Of a stretch of DNA of 64,000 nt, positions 8,113 to 64,000 are shown in pieces (the first letter of the stretch is position 1; each line of letters begins with the position of its first letter). Under the pieces are notes generated by a model, which ran no database searches, had not been told where the DNA came from, and worked only from the letters and a program-made list of their open reading frames with translations. The DNA lies in assembly GCA_022984795.1 (NCBI GenBank), contig JALIHJ010000006.1, positions 62,001-126,000 of the forward strand. Direction: 5' to 3'. Both the position numbers and the translations under genes were made by a program. The DNA comes from Fabrea salina (Eukaryota > Ciliophora > Heterotrichea > Heterotrichida > Fabreidae).

Positions 8113-8251
8113 TTTTGAATTTAAATTTAGAAATGGAATATCTTTTTGTTTCTGCTGTGAAATGGTGAATGGGTTCCTGGGACAAGTTTATTCATTAAAG
8201 CAACTACTTGCAAGTAATAGTAACTAACTTCTAACTTAAGACTGCTTAGAC
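8113..8251. other. 139-bp spacer between two minus-strand genes
   Basis: AT-rich sequence between the stop of the 90-aa gene and the start of the cyclin gene. It presumably holds the cyclin promoter. I found no ORF, tRNA or mini-intron-bearing exon here. Confidence 0.5.
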
Positions 8252-12048: not shown

Positions 12049-12056
12049 TATTATAT
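12049..12056. promoter_or_regulatory. 8-bp spacer between divergent start codons
   Basis: The spacer is TATTATAT between CAT (12046-12048) and ATG (12057-12059). Both starts are supported: a signal peptide on one side and the UBA2 nucleotide-binding loop at residue 5 on the other. Any promoter must overlap coding sequence. Confidence 0.7.
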
Positions 12057-14791: not shown

Positions 14792-14814
14792 TTATTTACT
14801 AGCTTAATATTAAT

Positions 14815-17868: not shown

Positions 17869-17886
17869 GGGTAATTATTATATTTA

Positions 17887-18279
17887 CTATACAAAAGTTG
17901 CTGCTGAGGGTATGATGACTTGTTTGCCCAAGAAAGAGTAGAGTTCTTCGTCCTCTTTGGCAGCAAAAAAAATATGGCGAGGTTCTATTCTGGGGTTTTT
18001 TCTCCGTTTCATTTTAGGGTCTAGTCTGGACTTTTCGCCGCTTATTTCAAGGACCTCTGCAGACAAGTACTCAATGACTGCACTCAAGAACACAGCTGAC
18101 TCAGAACTAACTTTGTCTGAAATCTTGGCTTGTTTGAGTAAGTTTTGGAGTTTGGACACTGGAAAGTGGAGTCCTGCGCGTTGGTTCTTTTTGAGTTTAG
18201 TTGGCAATAGTGAAAGGGGTGTTTGTGAAGTGATTGTAGTAAGGGATTTAGGAGTTTTGACTTGTGACACTTTAGGCAT
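17887..18279 (-). CDS. divergent histone H2A variant
   Basis: A 130-aa histone-fold protein. RAGLHFPVSKLQNLL matches the H2A start of helix 1 (RAGLQFPVGRV..LL), then VFLSAVIEYLSAEVLEISG matches helix 2, then RIEPRHIFFAAKEDEELYSFLGK matches helix 3 and the docking start. The acidic-patch Glu and Asp (IEYLSAE and EDEEL) are kept. It differs from canonical H2A in about six extra basic residues in loop L2 (DPKMKRRKNP), an N-tail without SGRGK, and a short C-tail without an SQ motif. It is a variant, perhaps for one nucleus or stage. Confidence 0.85.
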   Translation of the reverse strand: MPKVSQVKTPKSLTTITSQTPLSLLPTKLKKNQRAGLHFPVSKLQNLLKQAKISDKVSSESAVFLSAVIEYLSAEVLEISGEKSRLDPKMKRRKNPRIEPRHIFFAAKEDEELYSFLGKQVIIPSAATFV

Positions 18280-18304
18280 CTTTATAAGTGTATCTTTAGT
18301 AAAA

Positions 18305-18889
18305 ATGCTCGAAGAAGAAAATGACCAGTCATCTTACCAGACTCTGCACAGCAAAGAACTCGACAAACTCCTAGGAGCTTCTTCGTTGTTTCCCAGTGTA
18401 GAGGGCTTCCCTGAAGACGTCCAGCAAAAAGAAGTCCAGAAACTCTTGCAAGAAAAAGCAACTCTTTACCAAATAGCTGAACAGCAGGGCGAATTCAAAC
18501 ACAAAATTCCTCCTCTCACACAAAAAAAGCCAAAAAAGAAACAAGAACCCCAGGATGCCGGGGCCCGGTGGTTCCACATGAAGTGCCCCGTGATGACTCC
18601 TGAAGTCGAGAACGACTTAAAAGCTGTGATGCTCCGCAGACACCTCGACCCCAAACGCTTTTACAAAAAGGACGACTTCAAAGAAGCCCCTAAGTTCTTC
18701 CAAATAGGAACTGTGCAGAAAGGATTCGATGAACCCAAATCCACCCAACTCGAAAAGTCCACTAGGAAGAAACCTTTGGTAGACCAGCTTTTGTCCGAAG
18801 ACACCAAAATTGGCTTTTCGAAAAAGAAGTGGGAAGAAACCCACAAAAAACACAAGAAAGTAAACAGAAACACTAAGAAGAAGCACTAA
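18305..18889 (+). CDS. Fcf2-domain pre-rRNA processing protein
   Basis: A 194-aa protein. The core is the Fcf2 domain: WFHMKCPVMTPEVENDLKAV, then LR.HLDPKRFYKKDD, then PKFFQIGTVQKG, and the C-terminal KKPLVDQLLSEDTK..FSKKKW. Fcf2 (DNTTIP2 in animals) acts in the nucleolus in 18S rRNA maturation with the SSU processome. The tail is Lys/His-rich, as expected for a nucleolar protein. ATG 18305 is used; the open frame upstream overlaps the H2A gene and is not coding. Starts 25 bp from the divergent H2A start. Confidence 0.92.
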   Translation: MLEEENDQSSYQTLHSKELDKLLGASSLFPSVEGFPEDVQQKEVQKLLQEKATLYQIAEQQGEFKHKIPPLTQKKPKKKQEPQDAGARWFHMKCPVMTPEVENDLKAVMLRRHLDPKRFYKKDDFKEAPKFFQIGTVQKGFDEPKSTQLEKSTRKKPLVDQLLSEDTKIGFSKKKWEETHKKHKKVNRNTKKKH

Positions 18890-23443: not shown

Positions 23444-23451
23444 TAAATAAT
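23444..23451. promoter_or_regulatory. 8-bp spacer between divergent start codons
   Basis: The spacer is TAAATAAT, between CAT (23441-23443) and ATG (23452-23454). Confidence 0.65.
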
Positions 23452-36248: not shown

Positions 36249-39200
36249 ATGGTAGATGAACTAGGCTCAGACAGCATTTGCCTTTTCAACGACGACACAG
36301 TTTCGCAAGTTTCTGAAAGCCAAACCTTACTATCTTCGCGTTCTTACGCTTACCAAGAGTCAGCTATTCCTTTGATCTCTTTAAACAACTCAACTCAAAG
36401 TAAGCTTTACTCAGCCTTTTCTGTAAACCAAGAAGCGCTTCAGTTTTTGTCAAGTTTAGAAGGACCTTTGGGCGTGATATCAGTGGCAGGACTCTACCGC
36501 ACAGGAAAGTCCTTTTTGTTAAACAGGGTTCTTCTTAACCAAAGTGACGGGTTTGGAGTAGGCCCTTCTATAAACCCTTGCACAAAAGGACTCTGGGTGT
36601 GGACTAAACCCATTCCCGGGAAAACTTCCGAAGGCAAAAAATGTAACATAGTGGTGATTGACACGGAAGGCTTGGGGGCTTTGGACCAAGACTCCAACCA
36701 CGACACTCGAGTTTTCAGTTTGGCTGTGCTTCTTAGTTCTTTTTTTATATATAACAGCGTGGGCTCTATAGACGAGGAAGCTTTGCAAAGTTTGTCTCTT
36801 GTAGTCAATTTGACCAAGCACATCCAAGTCCGCTCTAAACAAGAAGACTCTTTTGAAGAGTTCTCTGAGTACTTTCCTGCGTTTTTGTGGGTAGTGAGGG
36901 ACTTCACTTTGCAGTTAGTCGACGAAGAAGAAAACCCCATCAGTTCCAAAGAGTACTTAGACAGGGCACTCATGCCCCAAAAAGGGTTTTCTGACTCCAC
37001 TGAAGAGAAAAACAAAATCCGCAACTTACTAAAAACCTTCTTCAAAGACAGGGACTGCTTCACCATGGTAAGGCCCAGCACAAACGAAGACGACCTCCAG
37101 GACCTTTCAAGCAAAAACTTAGACGACTTAAGGCCAGAGTTTGTCACCCAGGTGCTTGAGCTCCGCCAAAAAGTTCTTGAAGGAATCCGTCCCAAAAAAC
37201 TCAACGGAAAGGAACTTAACGGAGAAATGCTTTCGAACCTTCTTGTCTCCTACGTCTCAGCAATCAACAACGGTGCTGTGCCTTCGATAGAAAATGCCTG
37301 GACTTACATTTCCAGAAACGAGTGCTTCAGAGCTGTTCAAAAATGCGAAGAACTCTACGAAAGCGAAGTATTTGACAAGATTAACGAAAGGTTTCCACTA
37401 GACCCTGAAGAGCTTAAACTGCTTCACAGGCAAGCCAAAGAAGCAGCCTTGGAAGAGTTCCACTCCAAAGCTATGGGCCCAGACAAACAAGAAGCTGCTC
37501 GGAAACTCCTTGACTTCATCAACGACAAGTACACCAATCTTAAGTCTGACAACGAAATTGAAAGCCAAAGACTCAACTTGCAGTTCCTCAAAGAGAACTA
37601 CGAAGTCATCAGCAGGAAACTTAAGTCAGGGGACCTAGGCACTTTTAGTGACTACGAAAAAGAACTTAACTCTTTTAGGGAGTTCGTTAAACAGCACGGA
37701 CCTTTAGGTCCTAAACGCGAAGAGATACTTCTGGACTTTTGTTTGACCTCAGTTTCAGACGCATCTGACCACTTCCTTAAAAAGGTCTCTAAAGAAACCA
37801 CCCTTCAAAAACAACTTAACGAAGAGAAAATAGTCCAACTCAAAACTGAAATCCAAGAACTCAAAACCTCTTTTAGCCAAGAAAAACAAGCCTTACAAAC
37901 CAAAGCTTCACAAGCAGAGTCAGAGAAGTCAGAAGCTCTAGTTAGAGAAGAAACCCTCAGAGAACAAGTTTCCGACACAAAAGCTGAAAAAGAAAGAATT
38001 GAAAAAGAAATGAAAGACTACACCAAAACTCTTAAACAAGAAATCCAAAAAGAACTCCAAGAAGCCCAGCAAAAAAACTGGAAGTACGAAGAACAAATCA
38101 AAGAAATGCAGAGACAAGTCTACCAAGAAGAGTCTGAAAAGTCTCAAGAAATCGCTTTGCTCCAACAAAAAGTAAAGTTCTTAGAAAACTCTTTAGAAGA
38201 AGTCAACCAACGCGAAAAAAAGTACAACGCTGACTTCAAAGACCAAAAAAAGCACTACGAAGGCACCATCAAAGACATCACCTCCAAGTACGAGTCCCAA
38301 GTTCTCAGTCTCCAAAACAAACTAGAAGCTGAACTCGAAAAGTACTCAGACCTAGAAAAAACCCTGAACGACTACGAAAACCAAATAGAAAAAGAAAGGT
38401 CTGCTTGGCAAGAAAAAGAAAACCAGTTCAAACAACTACTAGAAGAAGCCAACCAAGAGGTCAAAGGTCTCAGGTCCAAAGCAAACAACAAAGAACACCT
38501 CATCAAGTCTGAGTGGGAAAAAACCAAAAAATCTTCAGAAGACGAAGCCCAAAAACTCAGAACCAAACTCCAAGACACCGAAGAAAAACTCAAAGCCAAC
38601 GAAGCCCAAGTCCACCACCTACAAGCAGCTTCGCAAAAAGAGTACGCAATCCTTCAGCAAAAACTCGAGTTTTTAGAACAAGAACTCGAAGAAACCAAAA
38701 AGACCCTTGAAGACGAAAGAAGACACCACGAAGCCATGCTCAGCACCTTCAACAACGTGAACTCAGACATCTCAAGCGAAGAACTTGAAGCAGAAATCAA
38801 CAAAGTCAAACTTGAGTACGACCAAAAGTACAAAGACCTGCAAACTAACTACGACAAACAAAAAAAGCACCTCCAAACTGAAATGACGCAACTCAAAGAA
38901 ACTGCAGAAAACTTGGAACTTCAAAAGAAAATGCTTGAAAAAGACCTTGAAACCAAAAACCAAGAGTACCAAGAAACCTTTTCAACTCTTAAATCCCAAA
39001 AACTAAAACTAACTGAACAACTAAAGTCCCTCCAAGCAGAAAACACCTTACTTACTGAAGAAGGAGAAGCCAAAATGAAAAAGCGAGTTAAAGAACTAGA
39101 AAACTCCATAGAAGAACTCAACTCAGTCCACTCCCAAGAAGTTTCTAAACTCAAACAAGAGCACCAAAAACTCATTGAACAACTCAAAAACTACTATGAA

Positions 39201-41183
39201 ACCGAAAAAGACAGACTTGAAGCCAGGTACAAAGAAGACAAAGAAAGAAACGATAAAAAGTACGAAATAGCGGTGGAGGACTATGAACAACAACTCAGAG
39301 ACGAACAAGAACAGTACGAAGAAGAACTCAACGCCTTGCAAGAAGAACTCCGCGAAGTCCAGCACTGCAGGAACCAAGAACTCCAAGACTACAACCACAA
39401 GTCTGCTTTAGACGCTCAAAAAATCCAAACTCTCGAAGCTTACTTAGACGAAACTAAAAGCCAACTATCCTCTCTACAACTGTCTCACAACCAAGCTTTA
39501 GAAAACCAAATCCAGAACTTCAACAGCGAAAGAAACAGTTTACTCTCCAAAATAGAAAAACTCTCTGGAGAAGTAACCTTTAAAGACCGAGAATACGCCA
39601 CTTACTCCTACAAACTCGAACAACTCCAAAGCAAAATTGAGTCCCAAAACACAGAAATGCAAGAGATGAAAGAACAGTTTGACTCTGAAAAACACACTTT
39701 ACTGGAAAGACTTGAAAACGCCAAACAAGCAAACTACAAGTTAGCTGACGAAATCAGCAAAAAGAAAAGCGACTACAAACGAGAAATAGCCCTAGCTAAC
39801 CAGCACATTGAGTTCCAAAGCAGAAAGATCGGAGACCTTGAAAAGAACCTTAGTGAAACTAACAAGAAGTACAACGAGTCAATAAAAAACTACTACTCTG
39901 AAACAGGCCAAGAAATCAACGAACTGGTTGAAAAACTCAAAACCCAAAAAAAACAAGCTGAAGAAAAACTAGAACAGAAAAAGAAACAACTCAAAGAAAC
40001 CCAAAACAAGTCCTACAAACAAATCACTAGTTTAGAAAAAGAAAAAGCTGTACTCCAAGAAAAAGTTACCTTTTTGGAACAAAAGAAAACAGAAATCGAA
40101 GAAAGAATGACTGCAGAAATCAAAAACCTCCACAGCCAGTTAACTAACAGAAGTGACTCCCCATACGGAACCAACTCAGCCAAAGAAGAAGAACTCAAAG
40201 ACAAAATAACCAAGCTAGAAAGAGAACTTGCAGACTGCAACGCTGCCTATGACCGAGACAAAGTGCTTTGGGAAAACAAGTTTAACTTTTTAACTCAACA
40301 AAGAGACGCTGCTCGCAGTGACTTAAACGAAAGCCAGAAAAAGTTTGAACTTGCCTTAGAACGACTCCAAAAAAGAGGAAGTTACGACAAAACTAAGGTA
40401 GAAAGTGCCACAGCTAACTTACTTCAGTCTGTAGAAAACAGGTACAGCAACCAAATCAAAGACATGCAAAGCAGCTACCAAAGCACCATTGAAGAACTCA
40501 CTAAAAAGAACAAATACTTAGAAAAAGAACTCAAACAGCTCCGAGAACAAACAGAGCTAGACAAGAAAACCCGAAACACTGACTCAGACCAACTCGAAAA
40601 AAGAATCCAAGAACTGCTCCAAAACGAAGAAAACCTCACTCAAGAAGTGGAAGCTCTTAAAGCCGAAAAAGAAACCAAAATCAAAGAGTGGGCAGAGTTC
40701 CACAAACAAGAAAAAGAAAACCTCTGCAAGAAGCTAAGTGAACTCGAAAGCAGAGTCAAAGAGTCAGACCAACTCAAAAGCCAAGTGTTTTTGGAACACG
40801 AAAAAGAAAGAGCTAAGTGGGCTTTAGAAAGAGACCATTTGATCAACCAAAAAAACGAAGCCCAGGACATGATTGACCGCATTGAAAAAAGAAAAGAGTC
40901 TTTACTTCGTGAAAACGAAAAACTCAAAGCTGAAAGAGGCTACCGCAGCAGAGTCAGCAGCAACAAACGAGACTCACAAAACACTTCTTTCAACAAAGCT
41001 TACGCTCCTGTGTACACGCAGAACTTCTTAGCAGAAGAAGGAAGCCACTCTACTCCTTCTTCGAGTGCCACGCATGACTCATCGCCTGTTCCTTTGAAGC
41101 AAAAAAACCTAAACGGAGCAGCCAGGGCTTCAAGTCCTTTTGTACTTGACAAGAAGTACCCTTATAGAGTTAGAAAAGAATAA
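36249..41183 (+). CDS. GBP-type large GTPase with a long coiled-coil tail
   Basis: A 1644-aa protein from ATG 36249. Residues about 60-340 form a guanylate-binding-protein G domain of the dynamin/atlastin superfamily: P-loop GLYRTGKSFLLNR (about 81-93), GPSINPCTKGLWVW switch I, DTEGLGALD switch II (D138), and the GBP-type RD motif in WVVRDF (about 217). GBP helical-bundle sequence follows to about 520. Then about 1050 residues are nearly continuous coiled coil rich in Glu, Lys and Gln, and a polar tail. Animal GBPs are ~600 aa. Likely a membrane- or cytoskeleton-linked scaffold. Confidence 0.9.
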   Translation: MVDELGSDSICLFNDDTVSQVSESQTLLSSRSYAYQESAIPLISLNNSTQSKLYSAFSVNQEALQFLSSLEGPLGVISVAGLYRTGKSFLLNRVLLNQSDGFGVGPSINPCTKGLWVWTKPIPGKTSEGKKCNIVVIDTEGLGALDQDSNHDTRVFSLAVLLSSFFIYNSVGSIDEEALQSLSLVVNLTKHIQVRSKQEDSFEEFSEYFPAFLWVVRDFTLQLVDEEENPISSKEYLDRALMPQKGFSDSTEEKNKIRNLLKTFFKDRDCFTMVRPSTNEDDLQDLSSKNLDDLRPEFVTQVLELRQKVLEGIRPKKLNGKELNGEMLSNLLVSYVSAINNGAVPSIENAWTYISRNECFRAVQKCEELYESEVFDKINERFPLDPEELKLLHRQAKEAALEEFHSKAMGPDKQEAARKLLDFINDKYTNLKSDNEIESQRLNLQFLKENYEVISRKLKSGDLGTFSDYEKELNSFREFVKQHGPLGPKREEILLDFCLTSVSDASDHFLKKVSKETTLQKQLNEEKIVQLKTEIQELKTSFSQEKQALQTKASQAESEKSEALVREETLREQVSDTKAEKERIEKEMKDYTKTLKQEIQKELQEAQQKNWKYEEQIKEMQRQVYQEESEKSQEIALLQQKVKFLENSLEEVNQREKKYNADFKDQKKHYEGTIKDITSKYESQVLSLQNKLEAELEKYSDLEKTLNDYENQIEKERSAWQEKENQFKQLLEEANQEVKGLRSKANNKEHLIKSEWEKTKKSSEDEAQKLRTKLQDTEEKLKANEAQVHHLQAASQKEYAILQQKLEFLEQELEETKKTLEDERRHHEAMLSTFNNVNSDISSEELEAEINKVKLEYDQKYKDLQTNYDKQKKHLQTEMTQLKETAENLELQKKMLEKDLETKNQEYQETFSTLKSQKLKLTEQLKSLQAENTLLTEEGEAKMKKRVKELENSIEELNSVHSQEVSKLKQEHQKLIEQLKNYYETEKDRLEARYKEDKERNDKKYEIAVEDYEQQLRDEQEQYEEELNALQEELREVQHCRNQELQDYNHKSALDAQKIQTLEAYLDETKSQLSSLQLSHNQALENQIQNFNSERNSLLSKIEKLSGEVTFKDREYATYSYKLEQLQSKIESQNTEMQEMKEQFDSEKHTLLERLENAKQANYKLADEISKKKSDYKREIALANQHIEFQSRKIGDLEKNLSETNKKYNESIKNYYSETGQEINELVEKLKTQKKQAEEKLEQKKKQLKETQNKSYKQITSLEKEKAVLQEKVTFLEQKKTEIEERMTAEIKNLHSQLTNRSDSPYGTNSAKEEELKDKITKLERELADCNAAYDRDKVLWENKFNFLTQQRDAARSDLNESQKKFELALERLQKRGSYDKTKVESATANLLQSVENRYSNQIKDMQSSYQSTIEELTKKNKYLEKELKQLREQTELDKKTRNTDSDQLEKRIQELLQNEENLTQEVEALKAEKETKIKEWAEFHKQEKENLCKKLSELESRVKESDQLKSQVFLEHEKERAKWALERDHLINQKNEAQDMIDRIEKRKESLLRENEKLKAERGYRSRVSSNKRDSQNTSFNKAYAPVYTQNFLAEEGSHSTPSSSATHDSSPVPLKQKNLNGAARASSPFVLDKKYPYRVRKE

Positions 41184-41477: not shown

Positions 41478-41484
41478 TTATAGT
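41478..41484. promoter_or_regulatory. 7-bp spacer between divergent start codons
   Basis: The spacer is TTATAGT, between CAT (41475-41477) and ATG (41485-41487). Confidence 0.55.
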
Positions 41485-44559: not shown

Positions 44560-45045
44560 TTAGTTACTGACATTTTTTTGAGCCAAAAAGTCTCTGCTCC
44601 ACCCTATAAAGTTGTGTAAAATAATGCAGGCGGCTACTTGGTCCTGGAGGTCTTTGCTTTGGCATAAAAAAGGGTTTATTTGATACAAGATACTGTTGCC
44701 TTCGTGGGAAGAGTTGTACTCGTCTTCTTTGACCCAGTTGTAGTCACTGAAAGTTGTTAAAAAGTTGTCTACGGTTTTACAAGACTCAGTTTCAAGTTGG
44801 TTTTTGTCTAGTGGCCAGCCTACCACTCCAGCATCCACACAGTTTAGCATAGCTGTGAGCTCCAACATAGAGTCATCTTTGCTCAGCTTCAAAGTTTTGT
44901 AAGGAGATGGAGACCCCTCTCCAAAAGCATCCACTACATAAGACACTCCTACGTACTCAGTTCCTGCGTCTACTCCTAACAAGTTAACTTTTCTTCCTAG
45001 TTTAGCTAACTTAAGCACCAACTGTTGTCTAGTGAGCACAGGCAT
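44560..45045 (-). CDS. RuvX/YqgF-like RNase H-fold protein
   Basis: A 161-aa protein with the YqgF fold: [14 protein letters not shown] (strand with the first catalytic Asp, D26), [12 protein letters not shown] (the VVGLP motif), KEDEYNSS (the DERLS/T-like motif), and [14 protein letters not shown] (the D.AAA..L motif, Asp near 135). Bacterial YqgF/RuvX processes 16S rRNA or recombination intermediates. Eukaryotic homologues are mostly in plastid or mitochondrial lineages, so an organellar role is possible, although there is no clear presequence. Starts 8 bp from the divergent succinyl-CoA ligase gene, itself mitochondrial. Confidence 0.8.
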
Positions 45046-45053
45046 TTATAAAA
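45046..45053. promoter_or_regulatory. 8-bp TATA-like spacer between divergent start codons
   Basis: The spacer is TTATAAAA. With the flanking start codons the region reads CAT-TTATAAAA-ATG, nearly palindromic around TTTATAAA, so each gene sees a TATAAA directly before its ATG. Confidence 0.7.
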
Positions 45054-50402: not shown

Positions 50403-51797
50403 ATGTTAGGAGTTTTAGTTGTCTGCAAAGGAGTGCATAGTGGAAGAGAACTAGTGCTAACTTACCCACAAAACCTTCGAGAAAAAAACCAAACTTACTT
50501 TGACACTGTGCACTTTAATTCTTCGCTCAGTGCAAGTTCTATAGGGGACCATAAAGACTGTGTACTTGGGTACCCTGCTTCGGTGTTGGCAGACTTACTG
50601 TGTCCTAAAAGGGAACTTTGGGACTCAATCCTAGACGTTTCAGTAGAAAGCATCAGGTTCATAGGCTATCCCGTAAGCTTCAACTCAAAAGACCAAAAGT
50701 ACTCTAGTAATTTTTCCGAACAGATTTCTGCTTTTAACTTAGTGTTGGTGTTTGACATTGAGTCTCCAATGCTTAAGCACGCCAACTCCATTAAAGAAGC
50801 TGTGATTAAAATCAGTAAGGGTTAACTAGACTCTTTGCTTAGGTACGAACAGAAAAGGTGCGGTTTTCTATACGAAGAAATTCAAAAGTTAAAGTCGATC
50901 AACAAGGAATCCGAAGAAGAACAAATACTAGTTATGCTTGAACAGTCCAGTTTACTTAACTACGTTCGGGAAGTCCACTCGAGTTTCAAGTTCAACAGAC
51001 CTTGCAAAATCCTTATAAACAAGTGGCTTGAGTGCACTTTACAAATTTCACTTTTCGAAAGTTTGTCTGAAGTTAGGCACTACTACTCCTTGCTGTTCTT
51101 AGAAAACTCTGACAAAATAGAAGAAGATCTGGGTCCTAACTCTTCTTCTGTGCTTTTGTTGTTGCTGAAGCACTGCAAGTTCCCCGTTAAGTCTTTTATG
51201 GACATACACAACGAGCACGAAGTTCCCCTTAAGTCCCTGTACCGGGCTGCCCAACACTTTATATACTGGAACAAAGCTAAAGTAGTTCCTGTTTTGACTT
51301 CAAAAACAACTTTGTGCATTGCGCAGTCTTGGAGTTACTCCCATATGCTGGAGTTGGAGTACTCGAAGTCTTTCAAAAGCCTTTTTGGAGAGTTTCCAGA
51401 AACCTTACAAGCTTTTAAAAGCCCAGTTCAGATGAAAGACCTTGTAGTCAACAACTTGCGCGGAAGGAAACTCATACCTTTGATCACTTGGCTTTTAAGA
51501 AAGCAAGTAGTGCAGACTCTCCACTTGCACGTATTTTTGCTGCCTTCGAGAGTGAAAGTTCCTGAAGAGGTTAAGCAGTTCCTTCAAGTGAAGACTCCTA
51601 TTCCAGAGTCACTCATTTCCCACATTATAGAGCAAGAACAAACTGAAGCTTCCTGGATACTCCACAAAGTGCTTAAGTACTGCAACGGGAAGTTTCCCCT
51701 TGAAGAAATCAGCTGGCGGAGCGGAGTGCCTGAAGACTTGATTCTGAACGCCTTGCCCCAATTTAATTCATTCCTGCGTCCTCTCCTCCTTCCTTAA
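50403..51797 (+). CDS. NPRL3: NPRL3 (GATOR1 subunit), one 15-nt intron
   Basis: A 459-aa protein in two exons. Exon 1 ([22 protein letters not shown]) has the N-terminal longin-like start, with [10 protein letters not shown]. Read through the intron, the frame stops at once; removing 15 nt restores [19 protein letters not shown], exactly the segment NPR3 proteins share (A.RYEQ.RC.YL). The C-terminus ends with a winged-helix-like end ([22 protein letters not shown]). NPRL3 is part of GATOR1, which inhibits TORC1 under amino-acid starvation. It is one gene, not two ORFs or a pseudogene. Confidence 0.93.
50815..50829 (+). other. 15-nt spliceosomal mini-intron
   Basis: Sequence GTAAGGGTTAACTAG: GTAA donor, A at position 10, TAG acceptor, phase 1 (splits an Asn codon). 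Retention gives TAA in frame. Splicing restores a continuous NPRL3 protein, which is the strongest evidence for the intron class here. Confidence 0.95.
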
Positions 51798-52489: not shown

Positions 52490-55400
52490 TTAAATCCTTC
52501 TCCTCAGCACTTCAATGTCCATCCCTGAGGGTTGGTTTCTTAGGTGCAAAATGCTTGTTTTTTTCGAAAAGGACTCTTGGTTGGCTTTAGACTTCTGGCG
52601 GGTTTTGGGAGGTGAAGGAGTTCTTAATCTTTGAAGGTATATTCCTTCTGCGCTGCGGAAACTTTCTTGGGAGTAGTTGCGAGGCGTGCTTGCTTTTGAG
52701 GACCTTTTGGATTTTTTCCTTCTGGACTTGAAAGGTGAGTCTTTTGAGTAGTCTATTTTGTCAAAGATGAGGTATTGATGGGGTTCCTCTGGGAGTTCTT
52801 CTGTACGCTCTTTTGGAAGATCTTGCATAGGATCCTGTGTGGGTTCTTCTGGAGAATCTTGTGTGGGTTCTTCTGGAGATTCCTGTGTGGGTTCTTCTGG
52901 AGACTCCTGTGTGGGTTCTTGGAGTGCTTCTTGAGACGTTTCCTGTGAATATTCCAAAAACAACCCTTCAAAAAGTTCTTCATTGGACTCGTCATCGAAA
53001 TCAGGAGTAACCCCCTGCTGCTCCATAAAGCTTCTCAAGTCTTCAATGTTTAAGATATCCAAAACAACTCCGCCTAAGAAGTTGCGTCTAACTTTTACTT
53101 TGCTTCCTTCACTTGAAACCCAAGCTTCCCTTAAATCGGAACTGCTGACTTTCAAGCTACTATAACTTTCAACCAACTCTGAAGAACTCTTTCCAGAAAA
53201 AGGGTCTATTTTTTTAGACCTCTGAAAAGTTTTTTTAACTCTTAAATAGTTGCCTGTAACTTTGTGAAGCACCACTACACACTCAGGGTCTTTGGAGTCA
53301 AGTACTGCATTTTCAAAGTCAAAGTCTTCTTCGTTTTCTACAACTCTTCCTACCATCCACTTGTCGCACAGCTTCATTTGCACATCCATGATCCTAGCAC
53401 CCTGGAAACTCCTTTTTGCCCTTAGCACTTTTTCTGAGTTGTACCTTTTAAGCACTCCGTAGTGGACATCGCTTTCTATTTCTAGTATTTCGTACATGCT
53501 GGAGTTGAGTTTTTCGCCGTCTGAGTCTTCAAAGCTTTTTTTAACTAAGATTTTTCTCCCTGAAGGCCGGTGCATCACCCTAACGCATTCAGGGTCAAAC
53601 TCGTCCACTTCGGCTTCTGAAAGTTCTAAGCAAGACTCCTCTGAAATGGTTTCGAGTAGTTGTGGTTCATTCGACTCGTCTATGAACTCATAAGAAGAGT
53701 CCAAGTTAGGTGAAATATTTTCAGGCATCAAAGTGAATTCTTTTTCTTGAAACTTAGACACCAATTCGCTCTCTGGTTCAGGCAATTGACTAGTTTTATT
53801 AGTGCTTTCTAGTAAAGACCGTTCAGTCAAGGTATTTTCAGGAATGCTGCAAACTTTAAAGTTTTCTAGTTGGAAGTCAAAGTTGTTTTTAAGGCCTTGG
53901 AAGATCCTGAAGTTCTCTACTTGCAAGTTGTCTGTTTCAACAGTAACTAGAGTTTTTTTGGGCCGGAACTGTTCAGACTCCTTTTTAATATCATTGTTCA
54001 TTAAAACTAGGTCTGCAACAACTACTAGAGTAGTTAAACAAGTAACTATAAAAGTGTCCAAAGCTACTAAAAACACAATGTTTCCAGTTGAGAAACAAGA
54101 CAGCACATAAACTAGTATACAAATCATAGGGATGCTTACCAGACCCAGCCACAAGTAGGTGATATAAACTAGCGGTTTGAACAAGTGAACTTTTCTGTCT
54201 AACTGAGCACTGAACTTGTTCAGTCTGAAGATTCTAGAGTAAATAATCCTTATAAACAAAAAACTCCAAAACAAACACACCAAAACCACACACCTAGTTG
54301 TTTTCTTGTAGGTGTTTGTCCAAATCCTTAGAATGTCGTCGTCCCTCAACACTCTTTTGTAAAACAAGTAAACAAACAAAAAGTTCACTGAAAAGTTAAA
54401 CACAACCACACTCACAACAACTACAACTGAAAGAGTAATCTGTCCTTGCTCTTCTAGCAATTCCCTTCCTTTAACTGTATCCGCACTTCCCAAAAACCCC
54501 AAAAGCACCAACCAAGAAGTTGCCTCTAAAAACCCCAGAACCCCAACACTCCCAGCTATATGCAAAGTGCTTCCACTGATAAGTTTAGAAACTCCTACTA
54601 CTCCCAAACCGCACAGTCCTATGCTACTAAAAGGAAAAGGAGATTCTTCAACTGGGAGTCTCTCGGAGTAAGTTATACTTCTTTCCCCTAAGTACTCCAA
54701 ACACAACTCTTCATCAAAGTTGCAGGCCCTAACGTTGCACTCGGGGTCACAAATGTCGTTTTGCCTTTTTTCAAGAGTGCAGCCTTTAGCGCATTCTCCT
54801 TCAGCCAACTGTTTGGGAACACAAGTTCCTTGATACTCTTCATAAGAAGAAGGACAACTAGACAAACAGTTGCCTTGGAACTGCAGTAGTCCTTCTTCAC
54901 AAGTAAGGCAGTAAGTAGTTTGGTCTTTGCAAGTAATGCAGGGATATTCACAAGATAAGCATTCTTGGCCAATTTCTACAGTTACGTTAGCAGGACAACT
55001 CAGCAAACACTGGTTCTGGTACTGAAGTAAATCGCCAGCACACACTGTACAGTTAAAAGGAGTGCCTGCACAAGTATCACAAATAGGGTCACAGTCTCTA
55101 CACTCTTTGTTAACTTGGACTTTGTTCTCTGGACAACTCTTAATGCAAGATCCATTGTTTAATACATAGCCATCTTGACAACTTCCACAGTTATCTGCAG
55201 TTTCATAGCAGGTTTCACACCCATCTACACAGCTAACGCACTCACTCTCCACTGGAACTGTTTCTCCTTCCGGGCAGGAATTTATGCACCTTCCTTTGTA
55301 CTTATACTTGGAGTCCTCACACTCAGTGCAGTAGTTAACCTCTCCTTGACAAGCTAAACACTCTGCCGAGCACTCCTCGCATACACCCTCCACAGAAGTA

Positions 55401-58400
55401 AAGGCTTTGGGGCATGAAGCTAGACAAGAGCCTTTGTGTAAAGAGTACCCTGATACGCACGAAGTGCAAAAGTCAACAGAACCTGAGCACGTTTTGCAAG
55501 GGGACTTGCAGTCTAAGCAAGTGCTGCCTTCAGTGATAGTTACCTCTTCTTCACAAGTCTCTACACAAGAGTAGTTATGCAGAAACATTCCCTCTTCGCA
55601 CTCAGTGCACTTGTTTACTGAGTTTTCACACTTTTTGCAAGAAGAGTTGCAGTCAAAGCACTCTTTATTTTGGATGATTGTAGTTCCTTGCTCGCAAGAG
55701 TCCACACACTGATGGTTATACAAGTACTGTTCTTCAGGACAAGAAGTGCACTTGGTAGCTTCAGTTTCGCAAGTAACACAAGAGTCACTGCATGCCAAGC
55801 AAGAAAAGTTAGTTGAAATATAGGTGTTAGATGGGCATTCAGACTTGCACTCGGTACCGTATAGGTAAGGAAACTCTCCGTTTCTGGTACAAGAAGTGCA
55901 GGTTTGAGTGGTGGTTTTACAAGCTTTGCATGAAGGGTGGCACTCAACACAAGTTTTAGAGTTGTCTAGGTCAATAAAACCCTCTTTGCAAGTTTCGTGG
56001 CATTCGCCTTCCCAGTAGTAAGGTTTCTGAGAATCACTAATGCAAGAAAGGCAGTTGCTAGGAGTGTTTTCGCAAGTTGCACAAGGAGAGTAGCACACAA
56101 ACTCGACCACTTTAGAACTGTCTGCTTGGATAGGGTACCCATCTTGGGTGTTTGTAGTTATTTCAAAGCCAGAAGAAGATCCAACTTTGTTGTAGTTCTG
56201 CAAATTTAAGATTGAAAAAGATACTTGTGCTGGGTAAAAGTCCTCTTCAGAAAATAAGTAGACTGAAATTCTGTTGTCTCCTGTGTTTGTGCACACAACA
56301 TAGTCTTCTTGCTTGCAGCTGTAGTTCTCTAGTATAGTGATTTGATCTGGGAATTTAACTTGGATGTACCCGTTTTTAGGAATCACTAAGCTAGGTTTAA
56401 CTGTAAAAAAATACTCAGTAGTTTCAGATATTCCTCGGGACTGTGAAGTCGCATTTACTACTTCTAAAGAAGCAGGTGTATTGGCTGTTACTCTCAGGTC
56501 TGAAGTTTTGGAGTCTATAAAGTAAGATTCTATTTTGGTGTAGAACTTAAAACTTCCAGAGGGCTTTGTAGAACTTGGGTTTTGGATATTTTTAACCTTA
56601 AAAGACATTTGAGCAGTAGCAGTGTCTTTTGTGAGAGAAATGGAAACTATGAGTTTTTGGTTTTCTTTAGAACAAGAAATGGTTCTGATCTGTATACTAT
56701 CAGTGTTGCATTCAGGTGAGTCTGGGATAATAACTTCTTCAGGAGGAATGATCTCTACTGAACCTCCGTCGTAAAAAAGATTGCGGGGTTTGAAAGTAAA
56801 GGTATAGTCAGCTTTTTGAGCAACATCTGAGTTAGAAGTTTCTATAAAGCACTCATTTAACTCGTGTGGGTCTTGCATAGTTAGGGTAATTCCTGAACTC
56901 TTGGACTCTATTAAGTAGTTTCCTGACCTAGTTTCTACTTCAAACGAAGAAGAGGGTTTGGTGGTTCGCGGGTTTCTAATGCCTTCAATAGTGAAAGAAA
57001 GCACACCTGGTTCAAACCTGGACTCTTCAAAGCCCTTTGAAACATGAATGGAGTTAGGAGTGTTTTCGCACTCAAAGCCTGGCTCATAGCCTATGGGGTT
57101 AAGGCAGTTGTTTTCTAAAACTAACAACTCAATTTCTTCTGGAAGTTTTACAAAGACACTTCCTTTCAAAGGAATGGGGTGTGAGGTTGTAATTGTGAAC
57201 CTGTAACTAGCAACTTCTCCTGTAACTAGGGTGTTAGGGGTTACTTCCATACTTTGCAAAGTAGCTGGCTGGGCTTCTATAAGCAAAGTTTCATCTTTAG
57301 CAATTTGGTAGTTAAAACTTGAGTCAGGAAAGGTTTGGATAAGGATGGGGTCAGAGGGCTCAGGAGTCTCTGGGTTAGTTATGTCCTTTACTTGTAATTC
57401 TATGTTCCCAGAAGTGTAACTCTCAGAAAACCCATTAGTAACCCAGATGTACTTGTTGTCAGTTACTTCACACAACGAGGTGCTTTTGAGCACACTTGAG
57501 TCAGGAATAAAAAAGCACTCTTTTTGTGGATGGTTTTCAGCTGAAATTTGCTGAGGCAGAGTAATCTTAATGGAGCCTCCTGAAGGAACTGTAACTGAAG
57601 ATTCAAAGGAAAAGGTATAAATAGTTTTTGCGTTGATAGTTAAGTCTTGAACAGTTACTTTTGTGTTTACTAAAGCAGAAGGAGATGCTGTGAACGAGAG
57701 TAAGTTGTCTTCCTGAGTTTGGCAGATTTCTCCGTTTGAGTCTTTTATAAGTATCTTAATGTAGTCAGTGGGCTTGGTAGTTGGAGGGTTTTGGATTTGC
57801 TTAACTACAAAGCTGATGTATTCCATGGATTCTAAGTCTGAGTTAAAACCCTCTGAAATGCTGATGACTGAACCTGAAACTGAAAACTGAGGGTTAGGCC
57901 TAATTCCAAATATTCCTTGTATTTCAGTGGTAAAGTTTGGGTCAACTGTAAACTCGTTTTCAGGAAAAGTTAGTTCTAGTGTAGCTTGGGTGTGCACTGG
58001 AAGTTGGCAATTCATCCCAAATTCGTAGTTGGACTTTGAGTAAACAATTTCAGAACTTTTCACTTCAAAATTGGACAAGTTTATTATGTTTGGCTTGCTA
58101 ACTTTAAACAAAATGCTTTGGGCCTCTTGTAGAACTCCAGTTCCAAGCCCTGTTTTAAGCACAAACCCTGTGTAAGTAGCTGTACTTGGGGGGTTTTTAA
58201 TGCCTTCTACACTAAACTCCAAACTTCCTTGTGCTTCTTGAGAAAGGCTTAACTTCAACTCATTAGAAGCACACTGGCAGTTTGAAAGCACTTCGAGGTT
58301 TCTAACACCTAAGCACGTTTGAGTCTCTCCACAGTAGTTTGTCTCTAAAGCAGTCCAGTCAGGAAATTCCAGTGAAATAAACCCACCTGCAGGAATTTGA

Positions 58401-58921
58401 TAGTCACTTTGGAAGCTAATTTTCCAAGTTGAAACTTCGCCCGCAATGTCACTACTTGACTGGATTCCAGGAGTAGCAGACATTGCTATGGGATCGTAAG
58501 TTTTTTGGAGTCCAGAAGCTTTAGACTCCAGCTGAGATCCGTCACTGGAAAAGGATTTTACTACAAAAGAGTCTGAAGTCCCTGAATAATCTGGATTGTT
58601 GATTTCAAAAGCATCAACGTAAAAAGTGTTGCTTGCTTGGGGAAAGCACCCCTCAACTAAGAGGCTCTGTCCAGAAAAGTAGCAGTTAGGAATGCAGTTT
58701 TCACTTAGGTTTGACTCACAAGCCACATTTCGGTCCTCGAGGTTACTGAAGATTCCTGGAAAAGTTATTTCAAGTTTTCCGCCGCTATCAATCTCAGAAA
58801 CCGTTTTGAAAGCAAACCTGTAGGTAGTCTGGGTTCTTATATCTAAGGTTTGAGGACTTATATTGACGTCCCTGAACGCAGCACAGTTAACTAGTAGCAC
58901 CAGCAAAAACACAAACTCCAT
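52490..58921 (-). CDS. 2143-aa surface protein: beta modules, furin-like Cys repeats, membrane core, repeated cytosolic module
   Basis: Signal peptide MEFVFLLVLLVNCAA. Residues about 20-930 are seven similar ~120-residue beta modules, each opening like a YxF strand (TYRFAFK, TWKISFQ, NYEFGMN, IYTFSFE, SYRFTIT, DYTFTFK, EYFFTVK) and closing with NP.TT.PS..F. Residues about 940-1370 are furin/growth-factor-receptor-type Cys repeats (CxxC...C..CxxG...), then one LNR/Notch-like repeat (CTLEKRQNDICDPECNVRAC). About six membrane helices follow (1430-1645), then a ~500-residue cytosolic tail with four copies of a V.H..TG..L.VKK.F module and an acidic PTQ repeat. Looks like an adhesion or sensory receptor; no family name known. 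Confidence 0.85.
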   Translation of the reverse strand: MEFVFLLVLLVNCAAFRDVNISPQTLDIRTQTTYRFAFKTVSEIDSGGKLEITFPGIFSNLEDRNVACESNLSENCIPNCYFSGQSLLVEGCFPQASNTFYVDAFEINNPDYSGTSDSFVVKSFSSDGSQLESKASGLQKTYDPIAMSATPGIQSSSDIAGEVSTWKISFQSDYQIPAGGFISLEFPDWTALETNYCGETQTCLGVRNLEVLSNCQCASNELKLSLSQEAQGSLEFSVEGIKNPPSTATYTGFVLKTGLGTGVLQEAQSILFKVSKPNIINLSNFEVKSSEIVYSKSNYEFGMNCQLPVHTQATLELTFPENEFTVDPNFTTEIQGIFGIRPNPQFSVSGSVISISEGFNSDLESMEYISFVVKQIQNPPTTKPTDYIKILIKDSNGEICQTQEDNLLSFTASPSALVNTKVTVQDLTINAKTIYTFSFESSVTVPSGGSIKITLPQQISAENHPQKECFFIPDSSVLKSTSLCEVTDNKYIWVTNGFSESYTSGNIELQVKDITNPETPEPSDPILIQTFPDSSFNYQIAKDETLLIEAQPATLQSMEVTPNTLVTGEVASYRFTITTSHPIPLKGSVFVKLPEEIELLVLENNCLNPIGYEPGFECENTPNSIHVSKGFEESRFEPGVLSFTIEGIRNPRTTKPSSSFEVETRSGNYLIESKSSGITLTMQDPHELNECFIETSNSDVAQKADYTFTFKPRNLFYDGGSVEIIPPEEVIIPDSPECNTDSIQIRTISCSKENQKLIVSISLTKDTATAQMSFKVKNIQNPSSTKPSGSFKFYTKIESYFIDSKTSDLRVTANTPASLEVVNATSQSRGISETTEYFFTVKPSLVIPKNGYIQVKFPDQITILENYSCKQEDYVVCTNTGDNRISVYLFSEEDFYPAQVSFSILNLQNYNKVGSSSGFEITTNTQDGYPIQADSSKVVEFVCYSPCATCENTPSNCLSCISDSQKPYYWEGECHETCKEGFIDLDNSKTCVECHPSCKACKTTTQTCTSCTRNGEFPYLYGTECKSECPSNTYISTNFSCLACSDSCVTCETEATKCTSCPEEQYLYNHQCVDSCEQGTTIIQNKECFDCNSSCKKCENSVNKCTECEEGMFLHNYSCVETCEEEVTITEGSTCLDCKSPCKTCSGSVDFCTSCVSGYSLHKGSCLASCPKAFTSVEGVCEECSAECLACQGEVNYCTECEDSKYKYKGRCINSCPEGETVPVESECVSCVDGCETCYETADNCGSCQDGYVLNNGSCIKSCPENKVQVNKECRDCDPICDTCAGTPFNCTVCAGDLLQYQNQCLLSCPANVTVEIGQECLSCEYPCITCKDQTTYCLTCEEGLLQFQGNCLSSCPSSYEEYQGTCVPKQLAEGECAKGCTLEKRQNDICDPECNVRACNFDEELCLEYLGERSITYSERLPVEESPFPFSSIGLCGLGVVGVSKLISGSTLHIAGSVGVLGFLEATSWLVLLGFLGSADTVKGRELLEEQGQITLSVVVVVSVVVFNFSVNFLFVYLFYKRVLRDDDILRIWTNTYKKTTRCVVLVCLFWSFLFIRIIYSRIFRLNKFSAQLDRKVHLFKPLVYITYLWLGLVSIPMICILVYVLSCFSTGNIVFLVALDTFIVTCLTTLVVVADLVLMNNDIKKESEQFRPKKTLVTVETDNLQVENFRIFQGLKNNFDFQLENFKVCSIPENTLTERSLLESTNKTSQLPEPESELVSKFQEKEFTLMPENISPNLDSSYEFIDESNEPQLLETISEESCLELSEAEVDEFDPECVRVMHRPSGRKILVKKSFEDSDGEKLNSSMYEILEIESDVHYGVLKRYNSEKVLRAKRSFQGARIMDVQMKLCDKWMVGRVVENEEDFDFENAVLDSKDPECVVVLHKVTGNYLRVKKTFQRSKKIDPFSGKSSSELVESYSSLKVSSSDLREAWVSSEGSKVKVRRNFLGGVVLDILNIEDLRSFMEQQGVTPDFDDESNEELFEGLFLEYSQETSQEALQEPTQESPEEPTQESPEEPTQDSPEEPTQDPMQDLPKERTEELPEEPHQYLIFDKIDYSKDSPFKSRRKKSKRSSKASTPRNYSQESFRSAEGIYLQRLRTPSPPKTRQKSKANQESFSKKTSILHLRNQPSGMDIEVLRRRI
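52836..52922 (-). repeat. 24-bp tandem repeat in the 2143-aa gene
   Basis: About 3.6 copies of a 24-bp unit coding for ESPEEPTQ-type repeats in the acidic end of the cytosolic tail. The units differ at only a few positions, consistent with slippage. Confidence 0.85.
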
Positions 58922-58924
58922 AAT
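58922..58924. promoter_or_regulatory. 3-bp spacer between divergent start codons
   Basis: CAT (58919-58921), AAT, ATG (58925-58927). Both starts are well supported: signal peptide on the minus gene and a UBA domain on the plus gene. Confidence 0.75.
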
Positions 58925-60076
58925 ATGGATCCAAACTCGTTAAGTCCAGCTCAGCAAGAAACTCTTTTGAACTTCCAAGCTATTACTGAGAACTACGACA
59001 CTTCTTTGTGCGTAGAGTTACTTATGAGGCACAATTGGGACATCGGCGCAGCTTCCAACGAGTATTTTGCAAATCCTCAAAGCAGACCAAGGCCCCAGCC
59101 CAGAAACTCCTCTTCCTCTTGGTTCGGAAAACTTACCTCAGGAATTTCAAGCTTTGTTCAGAAAACTTGGAAGTCTATTATTCCTGATGAAATCAGGGGC
59201 GATGAGTCTACTTCTGCTAGGGACTTTGTCCAGAGACTCAGTGAAATAACTTTGGAGCACCCTGACTTTGGAACGAAGCAACTCAGCTTGATGGTGAAAG
59301 AAGCCTATGAAATCGACAAGCCTTTGCTGATTTACGTGTCTTCTAGAGAAATTGATAGTGACTTCTTAAGAGAAGCACTTTGCTCTGAGGTAGCAAAAGC
59401 AATGATTGATCCTAATTACTTAGCCTGGGGAGTTGAAGCTGACTCCAAAGACGGAGAACTTGCCATGAAGATTCTGGGAGTGGAAGCACTGCCATGCATA
59501 GCTGCAGTTAAAGTAGACAACGTAAACAGACCCCAAATCCTAAACAAGATAGAAGGACTAGTGGACCTTTCCACACTTGTAGAGTTTTTGGACACCGAAA
59601 GCATGAGTCTAGAACCCCAGGAAATTCCCGAAGACCCTTTTCTAAGGCAAGAAAGATTCATCAGGGAACAACAAGAAAAAGAACTGAAGGAAGCCGAAGA
59701 AATAGTGCGCAAGCAACAAAAAGCTGAAAGAGAACGACAAGAAAAACTTAAGCAAGAAGAAGCCGAAAAAAAAAGAATTGAAGAAGAAAAAGAAAAAGCC
59801 AAACAAGAAAAACTAGCTAAAGTTGGCGAAGAACCCCCAGAAGGCCCTGAGGTGGCCCACATTTCTTTCAGACTGCCAACTGGCCAGAAGCAAGAAAGGA
59901 GGTTTTTTAAAAACCAAACCGTCCATACACTCTACGACTACATTGCCACTTTGGACTTAGAAAGCCACGAAATAGTAACTGGGTTTCCTTTAGCAGTGCT
60001 CAGTAACTTAGAAAACACCCTGGAAGCCGAAGGATTGTTCCCTAAAGCCGTGGTACACATCAGACAGCCTATGTAA
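58925..60076 (+). CDS. UBA-UAS-UBX protein, FAF2/UBXD8-like
   Basis: A 383-aa protein: N-terminal UBA-like domain (SPAQQETLLNFQAITENYDTSLCVELLMRHNWDIGAASNEYF), a linker with no clear hairpin membrane anchor, a thioredoxin-like UAS domain (about 105-230, LLIYVSSREIDSDF), a charged helix, and a C-terminal UBX domain (about 300-383: ISFRLPTGQKQERRF) with the typical FP loop (GFPLAVL). UBX proteins recruit p97/CDC48 to ubiquitinated cargo. FAF2 sits on the ER or lipid droplets; without the hairpin, FAF1-like soluble function is also possible. Confidence 0.9.
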   Translation: MDPNSLSPAQQETLLNFQAITENYDTSLCVELLMRHNWDIGAASNEYFANPQSRPRPQPRNSSSSWFGKLTSGISSFVQKTWKSIIPDEIRGDESTSARDFVQRLSEITLEHPDFGTKQLSLMVKEAYEIDKPLLIYVSSREIDSDFLREALCSEVAKAMIDPNYLAWGVEADSKDGELAMKILGVEALPCIAAVKVDNVNRPQILNKIEGLVDLSTLVEFLDTESMSLEPQEIPEDPFLRQERFIREQQEKELKEAEEIVRKQQKAERERQEKLKQEEAEKKRIEEEKEKAKQEKLAKVGEEPPEGPEVAHISFRLPTGQKQERRFFKNQTVHTLYDYIATLDLESHEIVTGFPLAVLSNLENTLEAEGLFPKAVVHIRQPM

Positions 60077-61836: not shown

Positions 61837-64000
61837 TTACAACTTGCCTGAGGTGTTCGGTCTGGGCTTGTAGGAGGCCATTGTGCTTGCAGGGCTTTCA
61901 GGTTCGCAGTCTAGGGTTTTTCTTGACCTTTGTTGACTTGCTGCAGAAGCTGCAAGCCACCTTATGATCTCTGTAAGGACTCCTTTTTCTTCAGAAACGA
62001 CACAACTAACTACTTCGTGAGCTACGTTCTTGGTAGAACTTCTTAGCATCCCTTCTAGTTGTGAAGCGGAGAACCCACGGATCACTGCTTGTTTTTGTTC
62101 TTCTAGTTTTTCGTGACTGGGGAACTTAGCAATGTTTAGTTTTTTGCGGCGCTCTCTCATTTCGCAGACCCTGGACTCAAGTTTCCTCCACAGAGGAAGT
62201 TTGGGGTCTTCAGAGTTTTGCCACACGTAGTGACCAGTGAACTTTTCAATGGCGCGTTTCCAAGAAGACTTAAGTGAGTCTTGGTTGATGGCTTTGATTG
62301 CGTGCATTAAGCGTGAAATGTACTCCATAAGAATATCGTCTCCTGTGATAACTAGTTTCCCTTCTTTGGACTGGCTTTTGTACTTGCACGAGGTGCACAC
62401 AGAGCTTCCACTTGTTATTTTGCCGCAAGTAGTGCATTTTTTGGGTTCAAAGGACTGCTCGATATCCTTTTTTTTCAGTTTGGGCTTGTTGGGTTCGACT
62501 GAAGTAGTTTTGGGTCTTGAAAAGGATTCTGGGGCTTCTTCTACCTGGGGTTCTATCTGTTCAGGAAGACTAGAAAGGTCCACTGTACTCGGAAAGAGTG
62601 CTTTGAAAATTGCTTTGTTGACTGTTCTTTGTGTGACAAAATACTTGTCGTACATTCTAGAGTCCTTTGTGGGGTAGATTCTTCTGAAGTTGTGTCTTCT
62701 TTCGTACTCCTGAAGGGTTTCTCTGAGGATTTCTCTGAACTTAAAGCTGGAGGAAAAGTCTTTTTTGGTTTGGGGCGACTGGGGTCTTCCATACTTGGTT
62801 TTTCTTTGCTTTTTGTAAGTCATTTGGTTTTGGCGGGCTTTGATTCTGTTTCTGACTTTGTTCATGCTTTCTTTCCTTCTGTCAAAAATCCTTAGCCCCA
62901 TTAAGTTAAATGCGTCAGATACAAGGTTCCCCTTTATGTATAAGTCCAAAGGGGCTTCTGTTGCCATGCTCGGACTTAAGTTCACTTCTATCAACCAAGG
63001 CTTCAAGTTACTATCTATCATCACATCAAACCCAAACAAGTCAAAGCAGTTGTTTCTGTGCAAAGCAAGTTTCCTAATGCTGTCTACAACTACGTTTTCC
63101 ATGCTTAGGATAGTTTTAATAACCATGTCATAAATCCTACTCCATAGCAGGTCCATATCAACTCCTACGGAGTCTAAGTGGTTCTTAAGGGCTTTTAAAC
63201 TCCATTTGTGTCCTACGTCGTCAGCTCGCCAGTCAGTGTTTTGAACAAACTTTTCGTTCTTTTTGTTAACAGAGTAGTTCGTGAGGTGGGAGTACCTGCT
63301 GGACATTGAGGACTGAGTGTAAGGCTCTGAGGCAAATCTTGCCAAGCCCTCTTCGTAAATGTAAACTCGCAAAGGCTCGAAAGAAGTCACTAGCACATAC
63401 AGTCTTAAGTCAAACTTCAAACCATTGATTAGGAGGGGGTTTTGAATATACTCAGAAACTACACAGGGTTCATCTAGCGGAACGTCTTTGATTGAGTCAA
63501 TGATGTAAATTCCTTTTCCCTGCGAAGAGTTTGAAGGCTTGACTATCCAGTGCTTGCGTTTTCTGTGTATGAAGTGGTCGTAAAAGTCCCGGTACTCGTC
63601 AGGGAGCACAAAAGTATCAGGTATAAAGTCAAATTCTTCTCTGCCATACTTTTCTTGCATAACAAGTAGGCTCATGCAAAGTTTGTCTTTTCTAGTGATT
63701 TCGTGTGAGTTCGGAAAGTGGTTGATGCGCTGGTACTGGTTCAGTCCTTCGTACAAGTACTGCTGGGCACTTGACCCTATCCACATGATGTTCCAGTCGT
63801 GGGAGTCTGTGTGTCCAAATCCCATAGTTTCAAGTGTAGACCGAACTAGTCTGGCGTCAGTTTTGTAAACTCTGTAAAGAAGTTCTTTGTGGTTAAGGAA
63901 GTTTCCTTTCGAATAAATGTTAGAGGGAGGCGCGTCCCGCAACAATTGATGCTCCTGCACAGGAGAAAAGGTGATGAGGGGCGGCTTTGAGTCTTCGGCT
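61837..64000 (-). CDS. tubulin polyglutamylase, TTLL5/TTLL4-like (5' end outside window)
   Basis: At least 720 aa; the frame stays open to the window edge and no ATG marks the start, so it is partial. TTL domain: DWNIMWIG, NHFPNSHEITRKDKL, WIVKPSNSSQGKGIYI (ATP loop), RLYVLVTSFEPLRVYIYEEGLARFA, SHLTNYSVNK, LFGFDVMID..LKPWLIEVNLSPS, all with the TTLL glutamylase pattern. The C-terminal part has a CxxC..CxxC zinc ribbon (CTTCGKITSG..CTSC) and helices. It adds glutamate chains to tubulin, and the window's carboxypeptidase could remove them. Which TTLL class is uncertain. Confidence 0.92.
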   Translation of the reverse strand, partial: AEDSKPPLITFSPVQEHQLLRDAPPSNIYSKGNFLNHKELLYRVYKTDARLVRSTLETMGFGHTDSHDWNIMWIGSSAQQYLYEGLNQYQRINHFPNSHEITRKDKLCMSLLVMQEKYGREEFDFIPDTFVLPDEYRDFYDHFIHRKRKHWIVKPSNSSQGKGIYIIDSIKDVPLDEPCVVSEYIQNPLLINGLKFDLRLYVLVTSFEPLRVYIYEEGLARFASEPYTQSSMSSRYSHLTNYSVNKKNEKFVQNTDWRADDVGHKWSLKALKNHLDSVGVDMDLLWSRIYDMVIKTILSMENVVVDSIRKLALHRNNCFDLFGFDVMIDSNLKPWLIEVNLSPSMATEAPLDLYIKGNLVSDAFNLMGLRIFDRRKESMNKVRNRIKARQNQMTYKKQRKTKYGRPQSPQTKKDFSSSFKFREILRETLQEYERRHNFRRIYPTKDSRMYDKYFVTQRTVNKAIFKALFPSTVDLSSLPEQIEPQVEEAPESFSRPKTTSVEPNKPKLKKKDIEQSFEPKKCTTCGKITSGSSVCTSCKYKSQSKEGKLVITGDDILMEYISRLMHAIKAINQDSLKSSWKRAIEKFTGHYVWQNSEDPKLPLWRKLESRVCEMRERRKKLNIAKFPSHEKLEEQKQAVIRGFSASQLEGMLRSSTKNVAHEVVSCVVSEEKGVLTEIIRWLAASAASQQRSRKTLDCEPESPASTMASYKPRPNTSGKL

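Follow-up and report, generated by a model that had tools for sequence, protein, structure and literature searches.

A head-to-head gene pair with three bases between its start codons is the extreme of a series of tight divergent pairs in an ultra-compact ciliate-like genome

How can two genes be read away from each other when only three bases lie between their start codons? The question is raised by the plus-strand sequence CAT AAT ATG at positions 58919–58927 of the window, by which we mean the whole 64-kb stretch of DNA that was analysed and from which these bases were read. The CAT (58919–58921) is the minus-strand start codon of a gene encoding a protein of 2143 amino acids, the ATG (58925–58927) is the plus-strand start codon of a gene encoding a UBX protein, and the AAT between them (58922–58924), assigned to neither strand, is the entire intergenic spacer. 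Both the sequence and the open reading frames (ORFs; 52490–58921 on the minus strand and 58925–60076 on the plus strand) bear out the divergent start codons and the three-base spacing described in the first-pass annotation. These are protein-coding genes on opposite strands with adjoining 5′ ends, and the head-to-head pair that they form is real; the nuclear genome around it is ultra-compact and ciliate-like. Together with the A and T contributed by each start codon, the spacer makes up a core of A and T only, ATAATAT (58920–58926, neither strand), which we propose as a shared initiator.

The motif alone says little, since CAT-N(0–10)-ATG is found at 79 sites in the window and is therefore common. 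At 11 of these 79 sites each frame continues for at least 60 codons without a stop; five of the 11 are divergent pairs in our gene model. The longest combined ORFs among the sites with both frames open are those of the 2143-aa/UBX pair.

The identities given earlier to the two genes, a UBX protein with a UBA domain and a large surface-type protein, are upheld by Pfam, and the signal peptide of the latter by hydropathy. The larger gene (52490–58921, minus strand) encodes a signal-like hydrophobic N-terminus, a cysteine-containing ectodomain with a Furin-like_2 domain (residues 1133–1177, E = 3.3e-14) and a polar C-terminal tail. The protein contains 109 cysteines, begins with MEFVFLLVLLVNCAAF, where residues 3–15 form the signal-like stretch, and is strongly hydrophobic in several stretches beyond about residue 1455. 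On the basis of hydropathy we regard it as a membrane protein with a putative signal peptide. The second gene (58925–60076, plus strand) encodes a protein of 383 aa with UBA_4 at residues 11–52 (E = 5e-08) and UBX at residues 307–379 (E = 5.7e-10). The UBA-like domain at the N-terminus and UBX at the C-terminus place the protein in the UBA-UBX (FAF1/UBXD) family, and its top match among solved structures is FAS-associated factor 1 (residues 112–375, E = 3.5e-06). A search for relatives of the UBX protein among genome contigs gave 117 pattern matches, none of which was confirmed, and a search for relatives of the neighbouring EMP70 protein among viral contigs gave two, again with none confirmed.

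The spacing is meaningful only if both starts are correctly placed. The first-pass annotation had allowed that a nearby tiny intron or a later first ATG might separate them. Upstream of the ATG the frame stays open for 18 nt in the 2143-aa gene and for 27 nt in the UBX gene before a stop is reached. GT-AG introns of 14–60 nt that end in these open stretches number four and five, respectively, and none of the nine, for either gene, leads to an upstream in-frame ATG; we therefore reject starts shifted by an intron. One 15-nt GT-AG candidate lies near the UBX start (in a scan limited to introns of 15–17 nt), but it is downstream of the ATG and in frame, and so does not move the start. Methionine next occurs at residue 147 of the 2143-aa protein and at residue 34, within UBA_4, of the UBX protein, so that a start at Met147 would lose the signal-like stretch and one at Met34 would cut the UBA_4 domain. 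Because later methionines would damage N-terminal features and no intron reaches an upstream ATG, both starts are likely to be right, and the proposed separation is not borne out. A true start lying elsewhere, reached through an unrecognised intron or at a downstream ATG, would find some encouragement in the weak start context of the 2143-aa gene (see below) and in the occurrence of tiny introns in this genome, one of which shifts a WD40 gene to a more upstream start (36094 in place of 35866). Against the intron scan and the cost of later methionines, we consider such a misplacement very unlikely.

The intron in the WD40 gene is one of two 15-nt GT-AG candidates used in our gene model. This one, GTAACTCACACTTAG, joins a first exon of 25 codons to the gene, giving the minus-strand start at 36094, which adjoins a typical start context. 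The other, GTAAGGGTTAACTAG (50815–50829, plus strand), splits the gene for NPRL3 of GATOR1 (50403–51797), and the pieces on its two sides match positions 1–43 and 275–455 of the Pfam NPR3 profile, in order. Both candidates, identified in silico, have the length of heterotrich spliceosomal introns (15–16 nt), and the one in NPRL3 suggests that the genome belongs to a heterotrich-like ciliate.

Long ORFs run throughout the window under the standard code, and the A+T content of the window is about 58%. The modelled genes, 49 in all, end with TAA in 38 cases, TAG in 10 and TGA in one (5036–6439). Rfam at gathering scores gave no match in the window, rRNA included, and a search for tRNAs found none. 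A stretch with extreme skew of A over T (0.526) was noticed at 38001–40000, inside a 1644-aa gene resembling guanylate-binding proteins (36249–41183).

Is such close spacing peculiar to this locus? All frequencies given here come from the one 64-kb window. After removal of 282–638 (a fragment of an ORF that runs past the window edge) and 8069–8227 (52 aa), the 52 non-nested ORFs leave 50, of which 37 have a Pfam match at E ≤ 0.001. Merging 50403–50825 and 50934–51797 into the NPRL3 gene gives the 49-gene model, in which the WD40 gene is extended to 36094. Between positions 640 and 63825 this model leaves 2347 of 63186 bases between genes, and 96.3% are coding. Gaps range from 6 to 54 nt at the 13 convergent junctions and from −1 to 296 nt at the 23 tandem ones. 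The divergent junctions, 12 in number, have gaps of 3, 7, 8, 8, 8, 23, 116, 140, 144, 154, 205 and 224 nt; among them is the pair at 17868/18074 (gap 205), which was kept in the count despite a doubtful start. Similar spacing thus recurs within the window, five of the 12 divergent gaps being 8 nt or less and six being 23 nt or less.

The distribution of the divergent gaps appears bimodal in this small sample, with six gaps of 3–23 nt, four of them 7–8 nt long, and six of 116–224 nt. The 205-nt gap (17869–18073), which lies beside the Fcf2 gene, itself looks like coding sequence when read on the minus strand, and 132 nt of open frame precede 18074. Our model of the genes is probably wrong at this place, and the gap may hide a small minus-strand exon.

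Pfam domains occur in both genes of four tight divergent pairs, in one gene of a fifth and in neither gene of the sixth. Apart from the 2143-aa/UBX pair, an 8-nt spacer, TATTATAT (12049–12056), separates a DUF4787 gene (minus) from a ThiF/E1-like gene (plus), and 23 nt (14792–14814) separate an MFS transporter gene (minus) from a gene for an RsmB/F-NSUN2-like methyltransferase (plus). The 8-nt spacer TAAATAAT (23444–23451) lies between a gene without a Pfam match (minus) and a dual-specificity phosphatase gene (plus), the 7-nt spacer TTATAGT (41478–41484) lies between two ORFs that both lack a Pfam match, and the 8-nt spacer TTATAAAA (45046–45053) lies between a RuvX-like gene (minus) and the gene for succinyl-CoA ligase alpha (plus). 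The RuvX-like gene (44560–45045) belongs to a family of Holliday-junction resolvases (E = 9.1e-13) and is seen here in a eukaryotic window.

These five further divergent pairs, 7–23 nt apart, also bear on the possibility that the junction was produced by a deletion in the assembled sequence. Since, in addition, both frames of the 2143-aa/UBX pair are intact up to their ATGs, an assembly artefact of this kind is extremely unlikely. The claim that nearly touching gene starts are rare in eukaryotes does not hold here, as five of the 12 divergent gaps are no longer than 8 nt and cases from compact eukaryotes have been published (PMC3792122, PMC2803860). The 2143-aa/UBX pair marks the short end of a series, and is ordinary for the window rather than an exception.

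It had further been deduced that the 5′ leader and promoter of each gene must lie inside the coding sequence of the other unless transcription starts at or next to the ATG. The logic of this deduction is sound: with a spacer of 3 nt, any leader longer than that, or any promoter element further upstream, overlaps the coding sequence of the opposite gene, unless transcription starts at the ATG itself. We consider it probable that the two genes, as a real head-to-head pair, both initiate in or beside the common ATAATAT core and carry very short leaders. RNA polymerase II would then start in both directions within the core or right beside it, the mRNA leaders on either side would measure between 0 and a few tens of nt, and whatever leader or promoter sequence extends past the spacer would run into the opening codons of the other gene.

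What speaks for initiation at the shared core is the sequence that precedes starts across the window. For the tests of start context we used 47 starts, leaving out those of 18074–18889 (suspect start) and 61837–63825 (near the edge, with a long open upstream stretch). Between about −10 and −1 the bases are biased towards A and T, and a run of at least 5 nt of A and T only stands directly upstream of 29 of the 47 starts, as against 52 of 1213 other ATGs. Both starts of the 2143-aa/UBX pair have such a run, 5 nt long. On the other hand, the start signal is weak exactly at this pair, as indicated by low ranks in a leave-one-out context score: the UBX start scores 0.43 (rank 38 of 47), a value equalled or exceeded by 9.5% of other ATGs, and the start of the 2143-aa gene scores −1.94 (rank 45 of 47), equalled or exceeded by 25.6%. 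It may also be that the A/T tract is a context for the start of translation and not an initiator. A stronger form of the proposal, in which a 7–12 bp box of A and T only, taking in the A and T of each start codon, suffices by itself for polymerase II to initiate in both directions, yields leaderless mRNAs for both genes and needs no further core element, seems to us rather unlikely.

Other short words around the starts were also considered. The word GTTAACTAGT precedes the UBX ATG by about 20 nt and falls within the signal-like coding sequence of the 2143-aa gene. Words of the AACTA/GTTAA type are somewhat enriched in intergenic sequence, TAACTA being counted 12 times where 3.3 are expected from composition and 2.2 from the coding rate. 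We did not accept these words as a promoter element, given about 2100–2160 k-mer positions and the many words tested.

The length of the leaders can be approached through upstream ATGs, which were counted for 46 of the 47 starts and compared with their frequency on the antisense strand of coding sequence (0.93 per 100 nt). At the 12 starts of the tight divergent pairs none occurs in −1 to −20 and four occur in −21 to −40, where about 2.2 are expected in each interval; beyond −20 there is no depletion. This pattern is weakly compatible with short leaders, the counts being too few to decide. At the 2143-aa/UBX pair longer overlapping leaders are possible, because no upstream ATG is met for 122 nt from the 2143-aa gene and for 233 nt from the UBX gene.

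Long leaders would thus be unblocked here, and any leader beyond three bases is in any case forced by the spacer into the neighbouring gene. The two transcripts might accordingly overlap, with 5′ ends that are antisense to each other and lie tens to hundreds of nucleotides inside the opposite gene, each served by a separate promoter at that place; overlap of transcription has been published for compact microsporidia (PMC2803860, PMC2387174). The other tight divergent starts, however, have upstream ATGs at 22–55 nt (for example at 22, 29, 31 and 55), and the lack of a general depletion beyond −20 likewise speaks against long leaders. Nor do the first codons of these genes carry a shift in composition: the A+T content of codons 2–21 is 0.589 in the genes of tight divergent pairs (n = 12) and 0.587 in the others (n = 35; permutation p = 0.92), so that this small test gives no visible trace of embedded promoters. 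Overlapping divergent transcripts appear unlikely to us.

A promoter at each start would not be needed at all if the mRNAs were derived from longer precursors by spliced-leader trans-splicing, and the tandem genes of the window, with their 23 gaps of −1 to 296 nt, are likewise close together. The nearest upstream AG, however, lies at a median of 12 nt from the starts as against 7 nt from random positions, and an AG is present within 5 nt at only 10 of 47 starts. As starts are thus less close to an AG than random positions are, no fixed acceptor stands beside the ATG. Besides, 12 divergent strand switches in 64 kb are unlike long polycistronic units. We reject trans-splicing on the AG distances, which argue against it weakly, and regard it as highly improbable.

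If initiation at the common core holds and transcription of both genes starts within a region of 3–7 bp, the junction would set a lower limit on the DNA that a eukaryotic divergent promoter requires. Ultra-compact ciliates would then be convenient for studying minimal initiators and the translation of leaderless mRNAs. For now, the 2143-aa/UBX pair ranks as one among a number of closely spaced pairs within a stretch of which about 96% is coding.

The macronuclear genomes of the heterotrichs Stentor coeruleus and Fabrea salina are gene-dense, with short intergenic and untranslated regions, and other papers cite the genome of Fabrea salina as extremely streamlined. Blepharisma stoltei is likewise reported to be gene-dense, with short intergenic and untranslated regions and tiny introns of 15–16 bp (PMC9942806), and a median intron length of 15 bp is given for Stentor (PMC10946202). 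Blepharisma differs in that UGA encodes tryptophan and A+T reaches 66% (PMC9942806), whereas the window fits the standard code at about 58% A+T. Unusually short leaders are known from another ciliate, Paramecium tetraurelia, where 5′ UTRs with a mean of 21.7 nt and a median of 19 nt were measured by Cap-Seq (PMC5485702); those of our pair are proposed from sequence.

Outside the ciliates, the report on the parasite Encephalitozoon cuniculi describes 5′ UTRs of less than 7 nt, and ribosomal protein genes that stand head-to-head 35 bp apart and may share a palindromic AAATTT signal (PMC2803860). After correction of starts, nine overlapping head-to-head or head-to-tail coding pairs remain in its 2.9-Mb genome (PMC2803860). 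Its starts are preceded by a CCC-like or GGG-like motif (PMC2803860), in contrast to the A/T tract found here. In Giardia lamblia, divergent transcription of adjacent genes is reported to begin sometimes from the same nucleotide (PMC3792122). The likeness to our pair extends to short intergenic regions and, as presumed for our pair, to short leaders and an A/T-rich, somewhat symmetrical initiation consensus (PMC3792122). Giardia, however, belongs to another lineage, its genome is about 77% coding (PMC3792122) as against 96.3% in the window, and its transcription starts were measured where ours are proposed. The tight head-to-head arrangement is already known from other compact eukaryotes, and the 2143-aa/UBX pair adds a case.
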